This document shows positions 2,097-15,924 of a DNA stretch of 31,640 bases, piece after piece. Origin of the DNA: a virus; the IMG/VR virus record IMGVR_UViG_3300028571_000074, positions 1-31,640 of that record; one strand, given 5' to 3'. Both the position numbers and the translations under genes were made by a program. The notes beneath the pieces are model-generated. The model made no database searches. It was not told the DNA's origin and saw nothing but the letters and a program-made list of their open reading frames with translations. The number at the start of each line of letters is the position of its first letter. Position 1 is the first letter of the stretch.

Positions 2097-4505
2097 GTGG
2101 AAATAATTTCAAAATTTCAAGTAATCGTCAACTCTCAAATTTCGCCTATTTTTGATGGAAAAATTCATCGTTTTGGAAAAAAAGATGAGGGATGGTATGT
2201 CGGGCATCAGTGGGATTATAAAGGAAACAATTACCAGATAATAAGAATGGGTAGTTGGAACGGATCTATCCCAGAAACTAAATTAAAATCTTGGGATTAT
2301 AAAGAAGAAACTACCGCGTTTAAAAAGAAGCTGGCCGATACGACAAGAGAAGCTCAGGCCAAATTAAAAATAGAAAAATCTGAGAATCAAAAAGCTTGTG
2401 TGGAGAAATGGTTCCCAATCTTTAAACAGGCAAAACAGGCCATATCGCACGACTATTTAACTCATAAGGGAATTGATCCTTTTTTAGCCAGAATTGATTA
2501 TAATGGCGTTCTATTGATTCCTTCCTATAACCAAAACGGATTCACTGGAGTACAGAGGATTTATAAAGATCCTGAGGCAGGAAACTTTATGAAAAAGTTT
2601 TCCTTTGGAATTGAAATTGAAGGATCTTTTTGTCCGTTATCAAAATTTAAAACTGCTGAGTATTGCTACGTTTCAGAGGGATACGCAACATCAGCATCAA
2701 TCCAGATGGCCTTTCCTGACGTGCCATCAATTTGTGTTTTCAATGCAGGGAATATTGAGCGCGCGATAGCTACTATTCGTTTTTTGCATCCAAAAATTAA
2801 AATAATAATAGCCGCAGATCGCGACTTCAAATCAAAAACAGGGGAGAGATATGCTCGTCAAGCTTGCACTAAATTTTCAGACGTTATATTTAAAATGCCT
2901 GATTTATCTTCTGATGATTGGTCTGATTTTAATGATCTTCATCAGTTTAACTCTCTCCAAGCTGTCAAAGATCAGCTTAAATTTGACGAATCTGATTTTA
3001 CATCAATTACTTGCCTTGGGTATAACGAGAATAATTACTACTATACCAGTACAACTTTTAAACAGATTCTTTCGATCCCTGCTTCTGCTCACAGCAAATC
3101 GAATTTTTTCTCACTTGCAGAACAAAAATACTGGGCAAAGCGATACGGATTTGAAGACGAAAACGGACGTACTATAGTTTCTTATGATTCTATATCGTCG
3201 GATCTCATGGCAAAATGTAGAGAAGTTGGAGTCTTCAATCCAGAAAACATACGAGGAGTAGGGATCTGGAAAGATGACGGACAGTACGTTATTAATGATG
3301 GAGAAAAGATTTTTCCATTCAAAAAAACTCAATATCATTATCAAGTTTCTCCTCCAATTAATTATGATGTTTCTCAAGAAATGACAGACGAAGATGCTCA
3401 AAAAGTCGTGTCTTCTTTTTCGGCCCTGAAATATAAGAATCCAAAAGATGCAATTTTATTAACCGCTTTTATTGCCCAAGCTCAAGTGTTTTCAATTCTT
3501 CCTTGGCGTTTTCATGTTTGGTTATCTGGCGAAAAAGGGACAGGAAAATCAAAAATTTTAGAGTGGACATCAGGAATGATTATTAATCCTAATATGGTTA
3601 TTAATACAACCGTATCAGGGATTATCCAAAATCTAAGAAATGATGCCAAAGTAACTGTTTACGAAGAGGCAGAGGCAGAATCAGGGAAGATGACACAAGT
3701 TATAGAGCTTGCTAGGCAAATGTCCACGCTAGGAGAGTTTAAAGTATTAAGAGGATCTGCCTCTGGAAAGGTTATAACAAATAACACAAATACCATTTTT
3801 CTATTTGGATCAATCCAAGTAACCAAGCTAAACGCCGCAGACAGATCAAGAATTTTCTTAATTGAAATGGATAAAATCGTGAATCAATCACAAGAAACTT
3901 ACGACACTCTTTGCGATAATTTTAGAGAATTATCACTTAATAAAAACCTTCTCTTTGCACGATGCTTTAATAATATAAATGTTATTATTAAAAACTTTGA
4001 GAACATATCTAAGTTTCTAAAAAAGAAGATTGAACCAAGGATGGCAGACCAAATCGGAATGGCACTTTCCTGCTATTCGATAATGCACACAAAAGAGATC
4101 CTAGACGAAGAGAAGATCATATCTCTTATAAATTATGCCGACATAGGAAAGTCAGCATACAAGGAACAAAATGAAGGTAACGAAAATGCTGATTGCTTGG
4201 GTGCTATGTTTGATGTGGTTATTGATAGCGATAAAAACACCATCGGAGGGATAATCGAGAAGATTAAAAGCTTAACGAATGAGCCGCTTGATACTCTCCA
4301 TCAATACTTAAATTCCTACGGTTTAAAATTTGATAGATCAAAAAACAATCTTTTTGTTTGCCTAAATGCCTCAATGGAAAAGGCACTCCCAAAGCATCCT
4401 GATTATTTAAGGATTTTGAGAAGATCCGAAAAGATGATTAATGGAGCAAAAACAGAAAGAATTAACGGAACAGTAAAGAAAGGAATCGTCCTTAATATCG
4501 AATAA
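2097..4505 (+). CDS. TOPRIM primase fused to a DUF927-like P-loop ATPase/helicase
   Basis: The 802-residue protein starts at GTG 2097 with AGGA at 2087-2090; the ATG at 2095 is out of frame. The N-terminal half ends in a TOPRIM domain: CYVSEGYATSAS with catalytic-type E194, then IIAADRDFK with the D241-x-D243 pair, then DDWSDFNDLH. This pattern matches TraC/phage P4-type primases. The C-terminal half has a Walker A LSGEKGTGKSK (G478-S485) and a Walker B-like VTVYEEAEAE (E523/E524), resembling DUF927/D5-type superfamily 3 helicase cores. The likely role is RNA primer synthesis coupled to ATP-driven unwinding at the phage replication fork. No N-terminal CHC2 zinc finger is visible. About 95 bases of non-coding DNA with a candidate promoter precede it. 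Confidence 0.87.
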   Translation: MEIISKFQVIVNSQISPIFDGKIHRFGKKDEGWYVGHQWDYKGNNYQIIRMGSWNGSIPETKLKSWDYKEETTAFKKKLADTTREAQAKLKIEKSENQKACVEKWFPIFKQAKQAISHDYLTHKGIDPFLARIDYNGVLLIPSYNQNGFTGVQRIYKDPEAGNFMKKFSFGIEIEGSFCPLSKFKTAEYCYVSEGYATSASIQMAFPDVPSICVFNAGNIERAIATIRFLHPKIKIIIAADRDFKSKTGERYARQACTKFSDVIFKMPDLSSDDWSDFNDLHQFNSLQAVKDQLKFDESDFTSITCLGYNENNYYYTSTTFKQILSIPASAHSKSNFFSLAEQKYWAKRYGFEDENGRTIVSYDSISSDLMAKCREVGVFNPENIRGVGIWKDDGQYVINDGEKIFPFKKTQYHYQVSPPINYDVSQEMTDEDAQKVVSSFSALKYKNPKDAILLTAFIAQAQVFSILPWRFHVWLSGEKGTGKSKILEWTSGMIINPNMVINTTVSGIIQNLRNDAKVTVYEEAEAESGKMTQVIELARQMSTLGEFKVLRGSASGKVITNNTNTIFLFGSIQVTKLNAADRSRIFLIEMDKIVNQSQETYDTLCDNFRELSLNKNLLFARCFNNINVIIKNFENISKFLKKKIEPRMADQIGMALSCYSIMHTKEILDEEKIISLINYADIGKSAYKEQNEGNENADCLGAMFDVVIDSDKNTIGGIIEKIKSLTNEPLDTLHQYLNSYGLKFDRSKNNLFVCLNASMEKALPKHPDYLRILRRSEKMINGAKTERINGTVKKGIVLNIE

Positions 4506-4516
4506 CAGGAGTTTTT

Positions 4517-4718
4517 ATGATTACCATCAGTCTAATTAGCGGATTAAAATTATTCATCCACAAAAAAAAGAGTTCATTTTGAATTCGATGATAAAAGTGA
4601 TCTTGTTGGAGTTATAATAGATAACGATCAAAGAAACCCAAGAACTATGCACAAGACTGATTTTGATGAATTACTTACCGAGATCGGGCTAGATGATGAC
4701 AAGACATATATAGTTTGA
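4517..4718 (+). CDS. Small hypothetical protein, apparently needing a +1 frameshift (or frameshifted pseudogene)
   Basis: ATG 4517 has a strong AGGAG at 4507-4511 and opens a 21-codon frame that stops at TGA 4580-4582. The +1 frame is open from 4548 to TGA 4716-4718 and encodes a normal-looking acidic sequence (EFDDKSDLVGVIIDND, then FDELLTEIGLDDDK), but has no usable start. Joining them gives about 66 residues. The stop context is AAGAGT-TCA-TTT-TGA-A. A peptidyl-tRNA on UUU could re-pair with UUU one base on and continue at GAA, as in the prfB-type +1 shift. Alternatively one extra A in the run of eight A (4562-4569) has broken the gene, or it is a sequencing error. No family is recognised. 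Confidence 0.45.
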
Positions 4719-6333: not shown

Positions 6334-6363
6334 ATGAAAACAATAATTGTGATTCTCACATGA
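6334..6363 (+). CDS. Nine-codon leader peptide coupled to the small terminase
   Basis: The ATG at 6334 has AGGATGAAG upstream and encodes MKTIIVILT. Its TGA (6361-6363) overlaps the terminase ATG (6360) as ATGA. The terminase start itself has no Shine-Dalgarno (TTGTGATTCTCAC precedes it), so its translation probably depends on ribosomes that finish this leader. The peptide is hydrophobic and may have no function of its own. Confidence 0.45.
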   Translation: MKTIIVILT

Positions 6364-6902
6364 AGTCACTCACACCAAAGCAAATGCGGTTTTGTGAGCT
6401 TTATGTCCAAACTGGAAATGCTACTCAGTCCTATATTGAATCTGGACATAAAGTTAAGAGTGATCGTGTGGCAAGCGTACAGGCAACTAAGCTTTTAGCA
6501 AGGGCTAGCGTTTTGTCCTACGTTCAACAGCTCAAAAATAAAATTACAGAAAAACATGAAATTTCAACGGACAGGGTAATCAAAGAATTGGTGAAGTCAG
6601 CTTTTGGGGACCTAGACGAGGTGATATCAATTGATGATGATGGAAAATTTGTTATTAAAAAAGATGCAAATATAAAAATGCTTGAATCGGTTTCACAAAG
6701 CGAATCTGAATCATCATCGTCTGATGGATACTCATCATCAAAAAGTTTCTCGGTAAAAAGATCAGATAAAATTAAAGCACTCGATATGCTTTGCAAACTA
6801 ACGGGGCTATATGAGCGAAGAGATGCAGACAGCGAACTTGGTAAATCAATTAACTCAAGACGAATTCTGGACGCTCTGTCACGATTTAGAGAAAAGAAAT
6901 GA
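6360..6902 (+). CDS. terS: Terminase small subunit
   Basis: The product has 180 residues, normal for this family. The N-terminus LTPKQMRFCELYVQTGNATQ followed by SYIESGHKV is the helix-turn-helix DNA-binding domain of the terminase_2-type small subunits (residues about 4-60). A Ser/Asp-rich linker and a helical C-terminal part follow. TerS assembles as a ring, recognises the packaging site in phage DNA and hands it to the large subunit. The gene overlaps terL by 92 bases, which is long; the end of TerS or the chosen start of TerL may need revision. Confidence 0.9.
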   Translation: MKSLTPKQMRFCELYVQTGNATQSYIESGHKVKSDRVASVQATKLLARASVLSYVQQLKNKITEKHEISTDRVIKELVKSAFGDLDEVISIDDDGKFVIKKDANIKMLESVSQSESESSSSDGYSSSKSFSVKRSDKIKALDMLCKLTGLYERRDADSELGKSINSRRILDALSRFREKK

Positions 6903-8466
6903 CCACGATACTTTACATGAGCTTATTCGTGTTCGATGCGCTGAGGACGTTGAGACTTTCGCTAAAATATTTTTTCCGCACTACTGCGAATTTCCTTTTA
7001 ATCAATTTCATAGAGATTCATTCAAAGGCTATAAGCTTGGGGAACGTAATTATCGACGAGCAAAAGCTGCGCCTAGGGGTTACGCAAAGTCAACTACTGC
7101 GGCCCTATTCAAGCCTATACACGATCTTTGTTATCGCTTGGAATCGTTCATCGTTATTATTTCCAATACTGAATCTCAAGCGGTTCAAAAGCTCAAAGAC
7201 ATTCAAGCAGAACTTATTGATAACGATCTTCTTATTGATGTTTATGGTAGATTTCTTAAAAGCAAAAAAGTTGGTTCAACTGATTTTATCGCTTTCTGTG
7301 GATCTCATGCGCTCCGTTTTGTGGCACTTGGTTCAGGAACGGAAATGCGAGGAATCAGGTTTGGTAATGTACGCCCCTCGAAAATCATACTTGATGACGT
7401 TGAGCACTCTGAGAAAGTTGAATCCGAAGAGCTACGCGATAAAATGCAAAGATGGTATCAAGACGTTGTTTCAAAAATTGGTGATGGAAAAACAAACATT
7501 GAAGTAATCGGAACTATCCTTCACAGAAAATCTTTGCTCAAATATCTTTTAAAAAATGCGCGGTATGAATCAAAAGAATATAAGGCGATAACTTCTTGGT
7601 CTTCGCGAAAAGATCTCTGGAAACAATGGGCAGACATTTACAACAACATTGATGATGAGCTTCGAGATATTCATGCGGAAGAATTTTTCGGATTAAATCA
7701 AATCGAGATGATGAAAGACGTATCAGTTTTATGGCCTGAAAAAGAATCATATTATTCGCTCCAAATCGAGATCCTTGAATCTGGTTTAAGATCGTTCATG
7801 AAAGAAAAACAGAACGATCCTCTCTCAGACGAAGAGAAAGTTTTCGATATAAACGATGTCTGGTGGTATCAGGAAACTAAAGACGGGCTTCTTATCGAAA
7901 AAACAAACAAAATCGTTCCTTGGTGCGATCTTGTCCCTTTTGGAGCGATAGATCCTGCTACTGGACAAACAAAAGTGTCGGGAAATAAGAAAGTTGACTA
8001 TTCTGCTTTGATTAACGCATACAGCGATAGCAAAAAGAGAGTTTTTATTCACGAAGATTGGCTAAGAAGATGCTCTCCGTCAATTTTCATCAGACAAATT
8101 TTAGAATTTATGCAAAAATATAATCACAACAAGTTTGGGGTAGAAACTAACCTTTATCGCGAACTTCTTCTTGACAATATAAGAGACGAAAGAAACAGAT
8201 TTGAAAGTGAAATAGGGCGTAGAATGGAGACTCGGTTTTACGACATTTATCTAACGGAAAATAAGGAAAAGAGAATCTATACTCTTGAGCCAAAAGTTAA
8301 AAATGGGCATCTCCTTTTCAATAGAAAATTGTCTAATTTACTCATGGATCAATTCTGGGACTTTCCAAAGGGCGAGCATGACGATGGCCCTGACGCTGTT
8401 GAAATGGTCTTTAGTTTAGTGAATAATAGGTATAAAGTTTCTGCTGTCGAAGGATTAAACAGATGA
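6811..8466 (+). CDS. terL: Terminase large subunit (packaging ATPase-nuclease)
   Basis: The product has 551 residues. The ATPase domain shows Walker A AAPRGYAKST (A86-T95) and Walker B IILDDVE (D195, D196, E198). The RNase H-like nuclease domain shows AIDPATGQ with D381 and a C-terminal EHDDGPDAVE with D524, D525 and D528 as candidate metal ligands. It drives ATP-dependent DNA translocation into the prohead through the portal and cuts the concatemer. ATG 6811 is the first in-frame start and lies inside terS; ATG 6823 is an alternative and neither has a good ribosome site. The downstream gene starts in a four-base overlap (ATGA). Confidence 0.95.
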   Translation: MSEEMQTANLVNQLTQDEFWTLCHDLEKRNDHDTLHELIRVRCAEDVETFAKIFFPHYCEFPFNQFHRDSFKGYKLGERNYRRAKAAPRGYAKSTTAALFKPIHDLCYRLESFIVIISNTESQAVQKLKDIQAELIDNDLLIDVYGRFLKSKKVGSTDFIAFCGSHALRFVALGSGTEMRGIRFGNVRPSKIILDDVEHSEKVESEELRDKMQRWYQDVVSKIGDGKTNIEVIGTILHRKSLLKYLLKNARYESKEYKAITSWSSRKDLWKQWADIYNNIDDELRDIHAEEFFGLNQIEMMKDVSVLWPEKESYYSLQIEILESGLRSFMKEKQNDPLSDEEKVFDINDVWWYQETKDGLLIEKTNKIVPWCDLVPFGAIDPATGQTKVSGNKKVDYSALINAYSDSKKRVFIHEDWLRRCSPSIFIRQILEFMQKYNHNKFGVETNLYRELLLDNIRDERNRFESEIGRRMETRFYDIYLTENKEKRIYTLEPKVKNGHLLFNRKLSNLLMDQFWDFPKGEHDDGPDAVEMVFSLVNNRYKVSAVEGLNR

Positions 8467-8673: not shown

Positions 8674-9579
8674 ATGCAGAACAAGAAAGAAGAACGAAAA
8701 ACAGTATTTAGAAGAATAGGCGGAAAAATAGTTCCTATTGTCGTCGGCGGTGGGGCTGTTTATGGATCGTCAAAGATAAATTCTCAAGCTGTTACCAATG
8801 AAATATTTTCTTCAAAAGTATTCAAAGAGAAAGAAGTCAAAACAGAAGAAATGTTTAAAAAGTTTAAAATAATAAAAAAGAAATATGCAAAAGAAATTCT
8901 AGCAGAAGTTGGAGAAGAAATTCATATACCAAATTCAATATTCAAATCAAATCCAATAGAGTTTAGGCCTTGGTCAAAGCAAAATGGATTCACTTACGGA
9001 TCAAGCGAAAGGTTTACAAAAGATAAGCCAAGTGGTTTTTCTGATTTTTCAAAAAACGATTATGATAGATGGAATGAGCAAAGGCCTAGAGTAGTTTTAG
9101 GATCTCCAAGGGAGGCAGCACTTGTTCACGAATTAGGACACGCCCAACAGTACAGATTAAAAACTAATCTTCATAAGGCAATGACATCTTACGATAGAGG
9201 TGTTGTTAATAATAAAATATATAAAACTCTCCATCGTGTTTATGATAAAACTGGTGCAACTGCATTTATGTCTAAGGATTGGTGGAGTAAAAAGCCATCG
9301 AAATTAACTACTGTTTTAAAATCATTGTCTGAAAAAACTCTTTCTTTTGACAGAAGATTAAATGGATACATGCACGACATAAAAAAAGTCGCCTATGAAT
9401 CTGATGCTTGGAGAAGAGGACTTGGAATGACAAAGAAAGGAAGAAAGTTAAAAATAATAAAGCAGGGTATAATTCCATTTTCTTCTTATCTTGTTCGCCC
9501 AACTATTCGAACAGGAAAAGCATTGCTTGCACTATCTGGAATTTCAGCAATCACTTACGGTTTTCTAAAAAGGGATTAA
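8674..9579 (+). CDS. Zinc-metalloprotease-like head-cluster protein with FRRIGGKIVPI N-terminal tag
   Basis: The product has 301 residues. Near the N-terminus, VFRRIGGKIVPI (11-22) is a divergent copy of a motif found in four genes further down; a glycine-rich hydrophobic segment (VVGGGAVYG) follows. In the middle, AALVHELGHAQQ gives HExxH at 152-156, the zinc-binding signature of metallopeptidases. E242 in YESDAWRRG is a candidate third ligand, at a spacing usual for gluzincins. The C-terminus has a hydrophobic stretch (ALLALSGISAITYGFL) that may be a membrane segment. It sits between terL and portal. It could be a prohead protease, an injected enzyme or a cell-wall-active protein. The protease fold is a motif-level assignment and the substrate is unknown. 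Confidence 0.65.
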   Translation: MQNKKEERKTVFRRIGGKIVPIVVGGGAVYGSSKINSQAVTNEIFSSKVFKEKEVKTEEMFKKFKIIKKKYAKEILAEVGEEIHIPNSIFKSNPIEFRPWSKQNGFTYGSSERFTKDKPSGFSDFSKNDYDRWNEQRPRVVLGSPREAALVHELGHAQQYRLKTNLHKAMTSYDRGVVNNKIYKTLHRVYDKTGATAFMSKDWWSKKPSKLTTVLKSLSEKTLSFDRRLNGYMHDIKKVAYESDAWRRGLGMTKKGRKLKIIKQGIIPFSSYLVRPTIRTGKALLALSGISAITYGFLKRD

Positions 9580-9582
9580 AAT

Positions 9583-11076
9583 ATGAACGGCAAAGGACAA
9601 ACATATAAATCGGGCGGTAGATTCTGGAAAGGTAGTTCGAGATCTGAAAAGATGGCATCGAATAACTTAGGAATTATTTCATCTGATAATCAAACGACTA
9701 AATGCCGTTCCCAAAAGCTCAAGGAAGTTGAGGGATATGTAAACGGAACGATTTATAATGGGCTTACCGAATGGGAAGATGCGAGATGCTCAGAAAATTA
9801 TATCCCTACAAGAAAAAGAAAACCTAAAATCATTTATCCTTTTGCGGAAGTTTTTGGCGAGCGAATAAGCAGTAAGGTGGCAGGATATTCAACATTCCCA
9901 AAAATAAAAATAGAAGATGATGAAGAAGCAAATTATCTTTTACAATTGATTGTCGATGGTGGATTTTTGAAGCCACGCCTATTATCTGCCGCAAAACTTT
10001 TAGCTATTTATAATTCAGTTTTCGTACGATTTTACTTTGCAGAAGGTATGCTAAAAGTAGAATCATATAACTCAAATTATTGCTATCCTGTTTTTTCTGA
10101 TGGTGGCACTCTCCAAGAAATTGAGATCAAATATGTTTATGATTCTGGAGAGACAGACGATCAAGGAAAACCGATTTTTAAATGGTATCGCCTACTTTTA
10201 TCTGAATCAGCTGATATTGAATTTGATAATCCTGTTTTTGATTCTTCTTCTCAAGGAGAGCCAGAATTTACGGAAGTTTCAAGAAACGATCATCAACTTG
10301 GATTCGTTCAAGGGGAATGGATCTCTATAGGTGAATCATCTACTGGAGTAGATGGAGATAGAGAGCCTTTTATTTTTAAAATTAAAGGATTCATTGATTC
10401 TTTAAATTACAATCTTTCTCAGACAGATCAAGCGAACGAATACGGACTTGAGCCACAATTAAAACTTACTGGCATTGACGAAGAGGAAGTTGAAACGCTT
10501 ATTAAATCATCTGCAAAAGCTTGGGCACTTGGGCGAGAAGGAAAAGCAGAATATCTCGAAGTAGCAGGATCAGGAATTGAAACAGCTCAAAAAGTTTCAA
10601 TGGACTTTTACAAAAAGGTTCAAGACATCGCTAGAATAGTCATGCTTGATCCAGAAAAGATCGTTGGATCAGCTCAATCAGCAAAAGCGATGGAAGTATT
10701 ACACGGGCCTATGGTGGAGCTTATAAACGAAATTAGGCCTTGGTTTGAGAAAGGATATAATTCTCTTTGTGAAAAAATAATGACAGCGATCATCGTTTTA
10801 ACTCACGAAGGATTCCAAACGCAGTTTATAGTTCCTGATGGATGGATTCCACAGAGCACGACAATTAAGGCCGTATGGCCTCCGATATTTGAGCTTACCA
10901 CTCAGGATAAACAGCAACTTGTTTCTATGGGTATTCAAACATCAAATGCGAATTTAGTTTCAAGGCAAACTATAGGGCAATGGTTACAAAATATGGGCGT
11001 TGATTTTGGTATTGATGATTGGGAGCTAGAAGTTCAAAAGATTAATAGTCAGCAACAATTTAACACTTTTTTCTAG
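9583..11076 (+). CDS. Portal protein
   Basis: The product has 497 residues, in the range of SPP1 gp6-type portals. The gene lies directly behind terL and one small gene, and before MuF and scaffold, the usual portal place. The conserved C-terminal third contains IVMLDPEKIVGSAQSAKAME (ending at E371), then VLHGPMVELI, the helix region that in portals lines the tunnel. The N-terminus is Gly/Ser-rich and basic. Twelve copies form the ring at one vertex, through which DNA enters and leaves. The start is three bases after the previous stop, with weak ribosome binding (AAAAGGGATTAAAAT). Confidence 0.88.
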   Translation: MNGKGQTYKSGGRFWKGSSRSEKMASNNLGIISSDNQTTKCRSQKLKEVEGYVNGTIYNGLTEWEDARCSENYIPTRKRKPKIIYPFAEVFGERISSKVAGYSTFPKIKIEDDEEANYLLQLIVDGGFLKPRLLSAAKLLAIYNSVFVRFYFAEGMLKVESYNSNYCYPVFSDGGTLQEIEIKYVYDSGETDDQGKPIFKWYRLLLSESADIEFDNPVFDSSSQGEPEFTEVSRNDHQLGFVQGEWISIGESSTGVDGDREPFIFKIKGFIDSLNYNLSQTDQANEYGLEPQLKLTGIDEEEVETLIKSSAKAWALGREGKAEYLEVAGSGIETAQKVSMDFYKKVQDIARIVMLDPEKIVGSAQSAKAMEVLHGPMVELINEIRPWFEKGYNSLCEKIMTAIIVLTHEGFQTQFIVPDGWIPQSTTIKAVWPPIFELTTQDKQQLVSMGIQTSNANLVSRQTIGQWLQNMGVDFGIDDWELEVQKINSQQQFNTFF

Positions 11077-11085
11077 GAAAATAAT

Positions 11086-11583
11086 ATGCAAGTAAAAGAT
11101 TTTGGTGTTACGGACATTGGGATCAACGAGCAGAGAGATTTTACAAATCCTCATGTTAGGTTCATTAGAAAAAATGGAAGAATCATTCCAATAGTCAACA
11201 AAAAAAGAGTAGGCCAAGACGTAACAGTAATGGGAGAAGCGGCCATGAAAACAGGGGCGGTAATTTCTGCCGCTTCAATCTTCAAAAATAAGATAGCAAA
11301 AAGCAATCCTATTAAAAGGTTTGGAGAGTTATTCAAAAACGCAGGGGCAAACATAAAATCAAAGCCAATTGCTCCCACATCAATTTCTGGTAAACTTATA
11401 AAGCATACTTCTTTCGGTGTCCTAAAGAGCGCAAAGCACGTTTTTAAGCACTCTGGGAAGTACGGGCTAGGATTGTTAGGACTTGGGCTTACTGGCATCA
11501 TTAGCGGTGCAGATATTCAAATGAGAAGCGGTCTAGGAAAGGATCTCTTCTTCATTAAAGATCAAAATAACTTGGGGTCTTAA
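11086..11583 (+). CDS. Basic head-cluster protein with RFIRKNGRIIPI tag
   Basis: The product has 165 residues. RFIRKNGRIIPI occupies 25-36 after a short acidic leader. A small-residue hydrophobic segment follows (AAMKTGAVISAASIF), then a Lys-rich middle, and a very Gly-rich hydrophobic end (YGLGLLGLGLTGIISG) that could insert into a membrane. The protein is strongly basic. I know no characterised relative. It is the first of four consecutive genes of this kind between portal and MuF, separated by one to nine bases, so they are surely co-expressed. A virion-internal or ejected protein is the best inference. Confidence 0.7.
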   Translation: MQVKDFGVTDIGINEQRDFTNPHVRFIRKNGRIIPIVNKKRVGQDVTVMGEAAMKTGAVISAASIFKNKIAKSNPIKRFGELFKNAGANIKSKPIAPTSISGKLIKHTSFGVLKSAKHVFKHSGKYGLGLLGLGLTGIISGADIQMRSGLGKDLFFIKDQNNLGS

Positions 11584-11584
11584 T

Positions 11585-12076
11585 ATGCAAGAATCAGGGA
11601 TGAGATTTATTAGAAAGGGTGGAAGAATAATTCCTATAAAAGCGGCGAAACGAGAAGGAGCTGTTGCAAAGGAAATTGTTACGGCCAGCGCGAGACAATC
11701 AGGGATAATTGCAGGAGCAACGGTCGCATCGTTAGGATCTCTTTACGGTGCAGGACGCTTACATAAATTTGCTATGGCCACAGGAAATAAAAAGCTCAAC
11801 ACGTTAGCAAAGATTTTTAAGTTTGGATCTGTTGCAACTACTGGGCTTGTCGCAGGGGGATCTCTGGCCAGCATTGATAAAAAAGTGAATGATGAAAGAT
11901 CAAAACTTTTTAATATAGGATCTCAGGCAACAAGTGCAATAGGTATAGCGGCACAACTTGGAATAGGATACGGAGTCTATCGACTCGGCAAACGATTTGA
12001 ATATGCAGGCAAGATGGGCGTAAACTTATTTAAAAAAGAAAACTGGAAAACTCTTAAAAAACTGGATTCACTATGA
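11585..12076 (+). CDS. Basic glycine-zipper protein with RFIRKGGRIIPI tag
   Basis: The product has 163 residues. RFIRKGGRIIPI is at 7-18. At least three Gly/Ala-rich hydrophobic stretches follow: SGIIAGATVASLGSLYGAG, VATTGLVAGGSLAS and AIGIAAQLGIGYGVYRLG. Their GxxxG spacing suggests packed membrane helices or self-assembly. The charged parts are mostly Lys and Arg. It overlaps the next gene by four bases (ATGA). The sequence shares only the tag and general composition with its neighbours. The function is unknown; a channel-forming or internal virion protein would fit. Confidence 0.7.
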   Translation: MQESGMRFIRKGGRIIPIKAAKREGAVAKEIVTASARQSGIIAGATVASLGSLYGAGRLHKFAMATGNKKLNTLAKIFKFGSVATTGLVAGGSLASIDKKVNDERSKLFNIGSQATSAIGIAAQLGIGYGVYRLGKRFEYAGKMGVNLFKKENWKTLKKLDSL

Positions 12077-12756
12077 TGGAAAAGCCAAGGTTTATAAGAA
12101 GAAATGGAAGAATAATTCCTATTTTTAGCAGTAATAAAAAGAAAGATACTGCAATCAAAGGTACTGCACTTGTGACAGCAGGGGCGGCATTTACAATAGG
12201 TGGTGCCTATCATGCAGGAAAGCTTATGAAGAAAGCTACTGACTTAAGACATGGGGCAATCGTCGGAGAGGCGAACATTAAGGCGGCAAATAGCGCAGTA
12301 ATTGGATTGAAACAATTTGGACTAAGGCAGTCAGGAGAAAAGATCGTGAAGCTAGGTGGAAGGGCAAAAGCGATCTCTCCTCAACTTGATTTATTCGAGG
12401 TAGGCGCAAAAATTAAGGGAAGGGCGTTTTCTCTTGGTGAAAGAGTAAAGGCATATAAGGCGGCATATAGATCAAAAAATATTTTGAAAGGTAGTCATAA
12501 TTTTGCTCACGCCGCTGTTGGTTTGGGCGTAGATAAGCTTTTAGACGCTTCTGGCCTGGAGAAAAAGATAGGATCAGAGTACGCATCAGAGATGGCAGGA
12601 GTTATCACTTTCGGGGCCATGCACTCTTTATCTGAAAACATTTATAATAAAAATGCTCATGGGGTTCCTTTAAGACAAGGATTCATAGGGGATCTTAAAA
12701 AACTAAAAAATCCAATTAAGAAGCTTGGTAAACTTTTTATTAAGAGTAGGTTTTAA
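12073..12756 (+). CDS. Basic head-cluster protein with RFIRRNGRIIPI tag
   Basis: The product has 227 residues, the longest of the four consecutive tag proteins. RFIRRNGRIIPI is at 6-17. A hydrophobic Gly/Ala segment (ALVTAGAAFTIGGAYHAG) follows, then a long basic, helical region, another hydrophobic part near HAAVGLGVDKLL, and a basic end. It overlaps the gene before by four bases, and the next gene begins directly after its stop. I know no family. The same tag plus a variable body argues for a common destination rather than a common activity. Confidence 0.7.
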   Translation: MMEKPRFIRRNGRIIPIFSSNKKKDTAIKGTALVTAGAAFTIGGAYHAGKLMKKATDLRHGAIVGEANIKAANSAVIGLKQFGLRQSGEKIVKLGGRAKAISPQLDLFEVGAKIKGRAFSLGERVKAYKAAYRSKNILKGSHNFAHAAVGLGVDKLLDASGLEKKIGSEYASEMAGVITFGAMHSLSENIYNKNAHGVPLRQGFIGDLKKLKNPIKKLGKLFIKSRF

Positions 12757-13101
12757 ATGAAGTTCATAAGAAAAAATGGACGAGTGATTCCATTGAAGGA
12801 TAAGGAGAAAGAAGTAAACAAGTCTTTCAAAGACGGAAAACTAAAGCACAATGAATTCGATAAAAATGTTGTCTATAAAAAAATGGATGCAAAATCTACA
12901 ATAGAGCAATCATTTGCAATGTCAGCGATAGTTGGAGTAGCAGGAGCACTGGCAGGAATAGCAGGAAGATCAAAATCGTCTGTGGCAACTGGTGCGGCCA
13001 TTGGATCTACTATTGGATTTTTATCTGGACTCTCCAATAATAAAAGATATGACAACAAAGGGACAATTGAGAAGCTTCACAAAAAGGCTAAATCAAGATG
13101 A
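12757..13101 (+). CDS. Small glycine-zipper protein with KFIRKNGRVIPL tag
   Basis: The product has 114 residues. The tag is at the extreme N-terminus (2-13). A charged linker follows, then a textbook glycine-zipper hydrophobic hairpin: MSAIVGVAGALAGIAG, a short basic turn RSKSS, and TGAAIGSTIGFLSGLS. This resembles two packed transmembrane helices. The end is basic. The stop overlaps the MuF start (ATGA). A membrane-active role during DNA ejection is possible, but other glycine-zipper proteins are structural, so this remains open. Confidence 0.7.
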   Translation: MKFIRKNGRVIPLKDKEKEVNKSFKDGKLKHNEFDKNVVYKKMDAKSTIEQSFAMSAIVGVAGALAGIAGRSKSSVATGAAIGSTIGFLSGLSNNKRYDNKGTIEKLHKKAKSR

Positions 13102-13928
13102 ACTTTTTCGATACTATAGACACTGTTTCAGTTCTTGAAAGAAATGCCAACAAAGTTGAAGGAATTGAATTAAATTCTGCTCGAAAACTTTTAAAGCAAT
13201 ACAAGAAAGCGAAAAAAGAATTGTCCAGTGATATGCTTCTTGCGCACGATAACTCTTATACAGAAGCAAAAATGAAAGCGACTATCATTCAGCTTGATAG
13301 AACTATCAGACAACTTGAAGTAATGATAAAGCCTCAACTTAAAACATTCTTTGATGATATGAGTGTTTTTGGCGTTGAGGATTCAGTAAAGGAAGTATCT
13401 GCACTTGAGAAAAAATTTAATGGCGTAATCGTTCCGATGGATATTGATTCAATCGTAAGGACATCAGAGCCAGATAATTTTTTATTCAATAATTTTGAAT
13501 CATCTATCACAACTTATAATCAAACATTGAGAAACGGTTTCCAAAGACAACTTACCCAATCGCTACTACAGCAAAAAAGTTGGAGTCAAACAGTTTTCGA
13601 TATGGAACAAGTTTTCAATGAATCGGAGTTCGTCCTTGCAAGGATTGTGAGGACTGAGCTTCATTCAATTTATTCTGGATCAAAATTAAATGGATTCTTG
13701 AGTATTCAAGACCAGTATTTACCAGATCTCAAAAAGACTTTATATCATCCAATGGATTCTCGAACAGGAGAAGATTCAAAGCAAGCGTCAAGACTGCACT
13801 TGATCGTGGGCTTGAATGAGCCTTTTAAATACAAATATAACGGAAAGGAAAGGGTTTTTATGTTTCCTCCTGACAGGCCAAACGATAGATCAATTTTGAT
13901 CCCCTACCGAGAAAGTTGGAAAAAGTAG
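13098..13928 (+). CDS. MuF-like minor head protein (head morphogenesis)
   Basis: The product has 276 residues. The C-terminal MuF domain is recognisable: IVRTELHSIYSGSKLNGF with the conserved R185-T-E187, then K-T-L-Y-H-P-M-DSRTGED (D220-D226), and a final PPDRPNDRSILIPY. Relatives include Mu gpF and SPP1 gp7, which sit with the portal inside the capsid and act in head assembly or early ejection. The N-terminal half is helical. The position after portal and before scaffold is canonical. It starts by a four-base overlap with the preceding gene. Confidence 0.85.
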   Translation: MNFFDTIDTVSVLERNANKVEGIELNSARKLLKQYKKAKKELSSDMLLAHDNSYTEAKMKATIIQLDRTIRQLEVMIKPQLKTFFDDMSVFGVEDSVKEVSALEKKFNGVIVPMDIDSIVRTSEPDNFLFNNFESSITTYNQTLRNGFQRQLTQSLLQQKSWSQTVFDMEQVFNESEFVLARIVRTELHSIYSGSKLNGFLSIQDQYLPDLKKTLYHPMDSRTGEDSKQASRLHLIVGLNEPFKYKYNGKERVFMFPPDRPNDRSILIPYRESWKK

Positions 13929-13983: not shown

Positions 13984-14715
13984 ATGTTGTTCGGTACTAA
14001 AAAGTTTATGCTTATGAATTCTGTCGGTGATGGCGGCTCTGGTGGCGGCACTCCTGACGTTAAGCCTGATTCTGGCAATCAGGGTGGAGAGGATTCTGGT
14101 AATCCTCCTAAGGATGGCAACAAGGGCGAAGGTGACGATAGCACAGGTGGCGATCAGAACTTGACTCCTGAACAAACGGCCAAACTAATTAAAGATCTCA
14201 GAGCAGAAAACGCAAAACATCGAACAGAAAAAAATAATCTATCCTCAAAATTTGAAAACATTCAAAAAAAATTAAAACAAGTTTTCGGGGAAGAAGACGA
14301 CGATGCAGAAGCTCCAGACGTTAAAATCGGTAAGCTTGAACAAGAACGAAATTCTATTGCGATCCAGAATACTGTTTTAGTGTTAGCATTAAAACATGGA
14401 ATTTCAGCAGAAAATCTCGAGTTTTTTGAATTCAAGTTTATGAAACAGTTAAACGCTCTTGAGGAAGGAGAGGAGTTCTCGGAAGAAAATTTGGAAGAGA
14501 TCCTAAAGACTATTCCAAAAACTAACGGAACGAAGCCTCCTGCAAATTCGTCAACTGGATCAGGTGGAAAGCCTCCACAGAATGACTCAGGAGATTCAGT
14601 GACTCTTGAGCAGTTTGCAAAGATGGGGCCTCTTGATAAGGATAAACTTTATCGGGAAAAACCAGATACTTATAACAAGCTTTTCACTGAGGCAAAAAAT
14701 AAACGACTTTTATAA
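13984..14715 (+). CDS. Capsid scaffolding protein
   Basis: The product has 243 residues. A low-complexity N-terminal region rich in Gly, Asp and Pro runs to about residue 58. A charged coiled-coil follows (LRAENAKHRTEKNNLSSKFE), then an acidic stretch EEDDDAEA, a helical region and a basic C-terminal end. This layout, placed just before the major capsid gene, is the usual scaffold. The protein guides coat assembly and leaves the prohead before packaging. The ribosome site is strong (AAAGGAG). No protease motif is visible in it. Confidence 0.82.
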   Translation: MLFGTKKFMLMNSVGDGGSGGGTPDVKPDSGNQGGEDSGNPPKDGNKGEGDDSTGGDQNLTPEQTAKLIKDLRAENAKHRTEKNNLSSKFENIQKKLKQVFGEEDDDAEAPDVKIGKLEQERNSIAIQNTVLVLALKHGISAENLEFFEFKFMKQLNALEEGEEFSEENLEEILKTIPKTNGTKPPANSSTGSGGKPPQNDSGDSVTLEQFAKMGPLDKDKLYREKPDTYNKLFTEAKNKRLL

Positions 14716-14734: not shown

Positions 14735-15628
14735 ATGGGTGCAACACACGCAGCAGATTTTGTTTTCGAACCTAAAGTATGGGCAGATCATATTCAAGCT
14801 TATTTTGATCGTTTCTTAGTATTCGGAGCTTTCGCTGTTCGTAACAATGAACTTACTGGCGAAGGAAAAGGGATGACTGTTAATTTCCCTTATTTCAAAG
14901 CAATCGGCGACGCTGAGGAGCCTGCTGAAACTGACGTTTTGACAGTAGATAAACTTGGTGATGATTCTTTTAGTTGTTCAGTTTTTGAAGTTGGTAAAGC
15001 TGTCGGCTTTACAAAAAAATCTTTCAAAAAGTCTGCCGCATCAGCAAATGCTATCATGGCAGAAGCTCAAAGACAGATCGCACGAGTTCACGCTGAAAAA
15101 GTTGATAAGAAACTTTTAACAGAAATCGAAACATCGGGAACAGATGGCTATGTTGCCGCCGCTGATGCTGATTTGATGAACATTCGCAATCTTAATATCG
15201 GTAAAGTAAAAGCTTTTGGAGATAAGCATCGTGAAGCAGTAGTTTGTTTCATGCACTCTCTCCAACTTCTTGATCTTCAAAACGATACTACCTCAGGTTT
15301 TATGAAAGCTGATGCAAACGATCCGTTCAACATGATTAACGGTTTTGCTGGGCGACTTTTGAATATGGCAATCGTTGAAAACGACAACATGACGAAGATC
15401 GCTCCTGCGGGCGCAATCACAAAAGATCGTTATCGTTCAATCATCTGTAAGCCAAACGCTTACGGGATCATCTCTAAACAAGAGATGGAAATGGACAGCG
15501 ATAAAGATATTCTTGCAAGAGAATATATTATCACTGGGAACGAGTGGTATGGTGTTAAAAACTTTGATAAAAAAGTTTCTAACCTTGATAAGAAAATTGC
15601 TTTCGTGACAACTACTTCAAGCAATTAA
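14735..15628 (+). CDS. Major capsid protein
   Basis: The product has 297 residues with an HK97-fold-like pattern. The N-terminus is ADFVFEPKVWADHIQAYFDR, followed by GMTVNFPYFKAIGDAEEP (the E-loop to P-domain part), the long spine-helix region ANAIMAEAQRQIARVHAEK, and the A-domain with FMHSLQLLDLQ. It resembles coat proteins of P22/N4-gp56-like phages. It has the best ribosome site of the window (TAAGGAG) and is followed by a terminator, as expected for the most highly made virion protein. Assignment rests on this pattern and on its position after the scaffold. Confidence 0.88.
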   Translation: MGATHAADFVFEPKVWADHIQAYFDRFLVFGAFAVRNNELTGEGKGMTVNFPYFKAIGDAEEPAETDVLTVDKLGDDSFSCSVFEVGKAVGFTKKSFKKSAASANAIMAEAQRQIARVHAEKVDKKLLTEIETSGTDGYVAAADADLMNIRNLNIGKVKAFGDKHREAVVCFMHSLQLLDLQNDTTSGFMKADANDPFNMINGFAGRLLNMAIVENDNMTKIAPAGAITKDRYRSIICKPNAYGIISKQEMEMDSDKDILAREYIITGNEWYGVKNFDKKVSNLDKKIAFVTTTSSN

Positions 15629-15639
15629 TTTTGCTTTTG

Positions 15640-15669
15640 TGCCGTAGCCTTTATCGGCTACGGCATTTT
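15640..15669 (+). terminator. Rho-independent terminator after the capsid gene
   Basis: A perfect ten-base stem, TGCCGTAGCC (15640-15649) with GGCTACGGCA (15656-15665), encloses a six-base loop and is followed by TTTTATT. It lies 12 bases after the capsid stop, where it would let capsid mRNA accumulate above that of the downstream connector genes. Confidence 0.85.
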
Positions 15670-15684
15670 ATTAAAAGGAGTTTT

Positions 15685-15924
15685 ATGATTTACAGTAGAC
15701 GATATAAGAAAAAAGAAATACCAGTCGCAGAGGAAATTCCTGTCGAAGAAATACCAGTCGCAGAGGAAATTCCTGTCGAAGAAATACCAGTCGCAGAGGA
15801 AATTCCTGTCGAAGAAATACCAGTCGCAGAGGAAATTCCTGTCGAAGAAGAAAAGATTAATACTGATAAAAACGGAATCGAATATACTACAAAAAAGCAT
15901 AACCATAAAAAAGGTAAAAAATAA
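15685..15924 (+). CDS. Small protein with four identical EIPVAEEIPVE repeats
   Basis: The product has 79 residues from ATG 15685, chosen because AAAAGGAG ends five bases before it; an upstream TTG in the frame lies inside the terminator. A basic N-terminus (MIYSRRYKKK) leads into four exact 11-residue repeats EIPVAEEIPVE and then a Lys/His-rich end (KKHNHKKGKK). The repeats are acidic and proline-containing, probably extended rather than globular. The function is unknown. The position after the capsid gene suggests a head decoration or connector linker. Confidence 0.65.
   Translation: MIYSRRYKKKEIPVAEEIPVEEIPVAEEIPVEEIPVAEEIPVEEIPVAEEIPVEEEKINTDKNGIEYTTKKHNHKKGKK
15715..15846 (+). repeat. 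Tandem repeat, 4 x 33 bp, exact
   Basis: Four 33-bp units (15715-15747, 15748-15780, 15781-15813, 15814-15846) are identical at every base and keep the reading frame. Each unit is itself built of two similar halves (EIPVAE and EIPVE). Complete identity points to recent expansion or ongoing correction by slippage or recombination. Confidence 0.97.

Follow-up and report, generated by a model that had tools for sequence, protein, structure and literature searches.

Why should five genes in the head module of a phage, whose products otherwise diverge, encode the same motif of 12 residues? The question is raised by a 31.6 kb linear IMG/VR virus record (virus IMGVR_UViG_3300028571_000074), all 31,640 nucleotides of which are referred to here as the window, in which five proteins share the consensus x-F-[I/R/V]-R-x-x-G-[R/K]-[I/V]-[I/V]-P-I. 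We consider, with a probability of about three in four, that this motif acts as an address tag for cargo of the virion, that is, for proteins enclosed in the head and ejected with the DNA. A broader claim, which we hold as probable with somewhat less confidence, is that it is a transferable, end-independent cargo tag of at least two interchangeable types that marks the injected proteins of an uncultured myophage clade, so that each phage's set could be read from its sequence. The five genes and their motifs, first picked out by a sequence-only reading of the window, are all present:

8674..9579, + strand: tagged gene 1, 301 amino acids, HELGH metallopeptidase-like, between the genes for the terminase large subunit (TerL) and the portal; tagged homologue L096:356-1195
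8704..8739, + strand: tag of gene 1, VFRRIGGKIVPI, residues 11-22; from the scoring matrix
11086..11583, + strand: tagged gene 2, 165 amino acids, basic; homologues L032 and L055 tagged
11158..11193, + strand: tag of gene 2, RFIRKNGRIIPI, residues 25-36
11585..12076, + strand: tagged gene 3, 163 amino acids, helical membrane-like body; 7-member tagged family (FAM4)
11603..11638, + strand: tag of gene 3, RFIRKGGRIIPI, residues 7-18; AlphaFold hairpin E8-11/E14-17
12073..12756, + strand: tagged gene 4, 227 amino acids, basic, start overlapping the gene 3 stop
12088..12123, + strand: tag of gene 4, RFIRRNGRIIPI, residues 6-17
12757..13101, + strand: tagged gene 5, 114 amino acids, glycine-zipper/transmembrane-like body, overlapping the start of the MuF-like gene
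12760..12795, + strand: tag of gene 5, KFIRKNGRVIPL, residues 2-13

Degenerate DNA patterns of the motif were scanned over IMG/VR and returned 58, 48 and 19 stretches. A 15-position scoring matrix was built from 201 seeds; F, R, G and P are invariant in it by construction of the seed search, the surrounding positions being R/K, I/V, I/V and P-I, and the R that follows G is replaced by K in 17 of the 201 tags. Shuffled open reading frames (ORFs) gave no match of 8 bits or more, compared with 293 matches above 12 bits in real ORFs, and exactly five ORFs of the window reached 12 bits. The 293 matches correspond to 284 ORFs, 264 distinct tagged proteins and 96 loci, one of them (L069) evidently a chance match; two further IMG/VR matches, L024 and L106, had no in-frame tag. 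When 145 representatives of the tagged bodies were aligned, each of F, R, G, R and P was kept in 90% or more. The main pattern was matched 11 times in 257 Gb of GTDB genomes, and the only real match (L063) was a contig with a phage module whose portal, TerL and major capsid protein (MCP) belong to the same families as those of the tagged loci. Searches of INPHARED by tblastn found no match to a 22-residue tag peptide, a query so short as to have little power, or to the window portal, and a search for related loci by the window portal alone was also empty. A search of an open-access library for the letters of the motif returned no paper that describes it.

The tag proved to be portable. The motif had been described as N-terminal, which holds for the five window genes (all within residues 1-36) but not in general: tags were N-terminal in 219 cases (∼83%; median position of the F, residue 9), at the extreme C-terminus in 29, near the C-terminus in 6 and at both ends in 9, the C- or near-C-terminal share being ∼13%. 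With the tag masked, the bodies fell into 158 BLAST families, 119 of them singletons, and the median length of the tagged proteins was 176 amino acids. One GNAT-like family (FAM3) includes five N-tagged members, L021 and L049 among them, and two C-tagged members (L062 and L107), and in the family of window gene 3 (FAM4) the tag shifts from FIRK to FRRI while the bodies remain homologous. The window bodies do diverge beyond the motif, as the sequence-only reading had said, and none gave a convincing Pfam or PHROG family.

The composition of the motif, hydrophobic and basic, and the adjacency of the tagged genes might suggest a membrane-binding or antimicrobial-like segment, or a functionless relic of gene duplication. 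Neither explains why five residues (F, R, G, [R/K] and P) are near-invariant although their codons are nearly saturated, nor why the motif occurs at either end of unrelated bodies or is substituted by a second tag (see below), and we find this proposal, part of which had been an earlier option, scarcely credible. Since codons for the same residue agree between tags of one phage in 40.5% of cases compared with 36.2% expected from codon usage, the tags within a phage are not recent DNA copies of one another.

The location of the tagged genes points to the head. By Pfam and PHROG matches, the window encodes a small terminase subunit, TerL, portal, MuF-like protein, scaffold and MCP together with a contractile tail (sheath and baseplate), and the genes that frame the tagged ones are as follows:

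6360..6902, + strand: terminase small subunit (PF03592)
6811..8466, + strand: terminase large subunit (phrog_38)
9583..11076, + strand: portal, SPP1 gp6-like, candidate tag receptor (PF05133, phrog_64)
13098..13928, + strand: MuF-like minor head protein, candidate receptor or partner of the tag (phrog_115)
13984..14715, + strand: scaffold-like protein, candidate tag receptor (phrog_8952/phrog_233)
14735..15628, + strand: major capsid protein (phrog_544, PF25209)

The portal gene lies between tagged genes 1 and 2, and four-base overlaps at 11585/12073 and 12757/13098 show that the tagged genes are packed tightly with the MuF-like gene. A small ORF downstream of MCP (15631-15924) has a tandem EIPVEEIPVAE repeat. 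The sequence-only reading had proposed asking whether the motif sits between terL and the capsid gene, and the order TerL – (tag) – portal – [one to six tagged genes] – MuF-like – scaffold – MCP held across ∼40 mapped modules; among 49 records, the portal family was found in 40, TerL in 36 and MCP in 42. No tag-like stretch was found in TerL, portal, MuF, scaffold or MCP. Some phages (L117, L120, L146, L148 and L149) have an optional second tagged cluster after the head-completion genes, downstream of MCP. A protein of ∼175 amino acids (FAM0; L049:4720-5223, L053:1235-1753, L080:3340-3885 and 13 other members) is usually encoded directly after the portal; its tag is N-terminal and/or near the C-terminus, it often ends in PF after an acidic residue, and it belongs to no known family. 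Untagged small genes after the portal in L116 (1852-2166) and L123 (4944-5249) have a common N-terminal stretch, RGHTIxQLRxLR, and are perhaps another family.

Because choosing contigs by the tag biases the sample, contigs were also chosen by MuF homology. In 71 contigs with enough upstream sequence, picked regardless of the tag and many of them overlapping the earlier set, the tag (tag 1) was present in 65, a second tag (tag 2) in 3 and neither in 3, and 7 of 11 new contigs selected by MCP with more than 3.5 kb upstream carried tags. In two contigs without a tag, L179 and L325, basic cysteine-free proteins are also missing from the portal–MuF site. Of two cultured relatives, Streptomyces phage Ididsumtinwong, related by MCP, keeps the order TerL-portal-MuF-scaffold-MCP with an empty portal–MuF gap and no tag, and phiKX1, related by portal, has no tag either.

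Such clustering beside MuF would also be expected if the tag served co-assembly, the hairpins of ejected proteins pairing mutually, or all with a hub such as the MuF-like protein, so that one ejection complex or conduit is formed. Beta-hairpins are able to add onto one another, membrane or glycine-zipper-like bodies are numerous, phages have several tagged proteins next to MuF, and the MuF-like protein is likewise cysteine-free (its family is almost without cysteine). However, some phages have a single tagged gene in the portal–MuF block (L114, L126 and L137) and soluble enzymes are tagged as well, and we regard co-assembly as rather unlikely. A processing site, cleaved by a phage protease as the particle matures in the manner of the T4 capsid-targeting sequence (CTS) peptides, would suit the terminal position of the motif and has precedents in T4 and SPN3US. 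Family searches with Pfam and PHROG, however, recognised no prohead protease among the window proteins, which disfavours a T4-like processed propeptide, and most C-terminal copies stop a few residues short of the stop codon, others lying near but inside the C-terminus. This option of the sequence-only reading therefore appears very improbable.

The tagged proteins also share a chemistry. In a comparison of 232 complete tagged proteins of 80–350 amino acids with 542 untagged ones matched for size, contig and strand, cysteine amounted to 0.1 per 1000 residues compared with 6.7, cysteine-free proteins to 98.7% compared with 46%, and the median net charge per residue was +0.149 (all above +0.05) compared with −0.017. 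Ejected proteins taken as controls were cysteine-free in the case of N4 vRNAP (3342 amino acids covered), T7 gp15 and gp16 and T4 IPI, IPII and IPIII, and T7 gp14 had one cysteine. An absence of cysteine would suit passage through the tail and the envelope, and the strongly basic charge is consistent with packing against DNA; lysines of T4 internal proteins have been reported to contact packaged DNA (PMC3012670). The same basic bodies, together with the invariant G-[R/K], could be accommodated by a DNA tether, whose x-G-R turn would bind the minor groove and hold the proteins on the packaged DNA until both exit together. Minor-groove binding is known for the AT-hook and for QGR/RGR hooks. We think this quite unlikely, given that contact with protein is suggested by the invariance of F and P and by the alternation of hydrophobic residues, that R is K in 17 of the 201 tags and that a tether leaves entry into the head before packaging unexplained.

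Several bodies resemble effectors. L100:3536 matches the ART-PolyVal ADP-ribosyltransferase domain (E = 2.6e-14) and L100:4863 and L021:5898 match GNAT acetyltransferases (E = 2.9e-6 and 3.9e-5), all above the Pfam cut-off; another tagged protein gave a weak ATP-grasp/RimK-like match. HE[LIM]GH occurs in three tagged families, window gene 1 included, whereas shuffling expects 0.16 families with HExxH. The description of gene 1 as metalloprotease-like rests on HELGH at residues 152-156, which is retained in L096, the one homologue found (41% identity); the AlphaFold model of this metallopeptidase was too poor for use (pLDDT, the predicted local distance difference test, 38). Such ART and metallopeptidase domains are characteristic of proteins for which packaging and injection have been predicted (PMC5512222). 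Other tagged bodies are glycine-zipper or membrane-like, and in the window genes 2 and 4 are basic, gene 3 membrane-like and gene 5 glycine-zipper/transmembrane-like, in keeping with the initial description. PDB sequence searches with the product of window gene 1, L015 and MuF gave nothing useful. L078 and L159 looked kinase-like by eye, and a PDB sequence search did not confirm L078.

Tag 2, GSRGG[HK]II[GR]xx[KR]xGxP[IV]Y, is found in clade members L188, L191 and L316, all without tag 1, on the basic proteins lacking cysteine that are encoded next to portal or MuF. The metallopeptidase body of L191 is homologous to the tag 1 metallopeptidases of L006, L007 and L077 (41.7% over 108 residues, E = 3e-18), and weaker matches tie the membrane bodies of L188 and L191 to tag 1 families. 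An address label would be expected to give just this picture, the same body under two unrelated tags in modules that are equivalent. The tag 2 motif, GEGSRGG[KH]IIGHTKSGKPIY, is N-terminal, internal or repeated (L188:4270-4974, L191:1767-2555 and 4111-4689, and many of L221-L259), and its near-identical letters occur on otherwise unrelated proteins of diverse phages with contigs of ∼6–160 kb. Since unrelated phages, often larger ones, commonly carry tag 2, and since it is frequently internal or repeated within a protein, this tag may have wider roles.

Taken with the confinement to the head module, the 158 body families, the basic cysteine-free bearers and the effector-like enzymes, the tag swap makes a cargo address the best-supported explanation; the proposal of a targeting tag for virion-internal, injected proteins is thus supported in part, without its restriction to the N-terminus. 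We infer the following course of events. The tag, which lies close to the free end (N or C) of small late proteins, would probably form a 12-residue beta-hairpin with one strand F-I-R-x, a turn x-G and a second strand R-I-I-P-I, as is suggested by the x-G turn flanked by two hydrophobic strands. During assembly, it would dock on a conserved head component, be it the scaffold, the portal vertex/MuF or the inner face of the capsid, so that the docked proteins become enclosed in the procapsid and DNA is then packaged around them. At infection, the tagged proteins would exit with the DNA via the contractile tail, membrane or glycine-zipper cargo helping to form or line the entry route and enzyme cargo (ADP-ribosyltransferase, GNAT, metallopeptidase) acting on the host.

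Several observations weigh against a cargo address. In the two tagged proteins modelled with AlphaFold the tag was drawn as a hairpin, at pLDDT values of about 30–60 (low confidence for E9-15/E18-24 of gene 1), and most tagged bodies have no recognised function. Co-variation of receptor and tag was not found: tag similarity was 0.646 within and 0.627 between phages, within the permutation range and with no clear signal of phage-specific tags. In L188 and L191, which carry tag 2, the core proteins are ordinary ones for the clade, and no obvious receptor changed with the tag. Finally, the site in L206 is occupied by basic proteins that lack cysteine but show no recognised tag; its stretch upstream of MuF (1-602) shows a net charge of +0.19 to +0.26, no cysteine and neither tag 1 nor tag 2, possibly reflecting a third tag or untagged cargo. 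A search for the receptor among core proteins that change with tag type gave no outlier. Because the core proteins are tag-free, those of the tag 2 phages are ordinary and tags are not phage-specific, the candidate receptor is suggested to be a clade-conserved surface or one outside the set compared.

Injected proteins are known for few model phages, and their identification normally needs virion proteomics. If the motif is a cargo address, it labels the injected proteins of an uncultured clade, exposes ∼158 mostly unannotated candidate families and offers a short peptide by which proteins of choice could be loaded into phage heads. It would also be informative about mechanism that either terminus can bear the tag, since the T4 and P1 signals are N-terminal.

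In its action the tag would resemble the T4 CTS and the P1 DarB signal. The T4 internal proteins are a highly diverse set with only the CTS conserved (PMC3012670). Like the tag, the CTS (IPI-III, Alt) is a short common sequence on diverse proteins, and T4 internal proteins are cysteine-free, as the tagged proteins are, and mildly basic; those of T4 are injected. The CTS sequence is unrelated (ipII and ipIII start MKTYQEFIAEA, ipI MKTFKEF), and the CTS is N-terminal and removed by proteolysis, whereas the tag is N- or C-terminal in a module without a recognised prohead protease, in phages that, unlike T4, have SPP1-like portal, MuF-like and scaffold proteins. Judged by sequence and by the strict N-terminal position of the CTS, the tag is not a member of that family. 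In P1, the N-terminal 30 residues of DarB suffice to send a reporter to the capsid (PMC9024508); the demonstration concerns one large protein, and no tag family on many unrelated either-end cargoes is described in that study. MuF polymorphic toxins and polyvalent proteins have effector domains just downstream of the portal and are predicted to be injected (PMC5576092, PMC5512222), and polyvalent proteins share the ART-PolyVal domain with the tagged set. However, polyvalent proteins have 2–15 domains per chain, compared with at most one recognised domain in the tagged proteins scanned singly (median 176 amino acids), and MuF toxins fuse the effector to the MuF domain, whereas here the MuF-like protein is a separate untagged gene product, the effectors are separate small proteins with a 12-residue tag, and no tagged protein matched the MuF family in the scans. 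The tagged proteins belong with neither the MuF toxins nor the polyvalent proteins. SPP1 gp7, a MuF protein, binds the portal (PMC5576092), and its gene adjoins that of the portal as does the MuF-like gene here, except that the tagged genes are inserted between the two.

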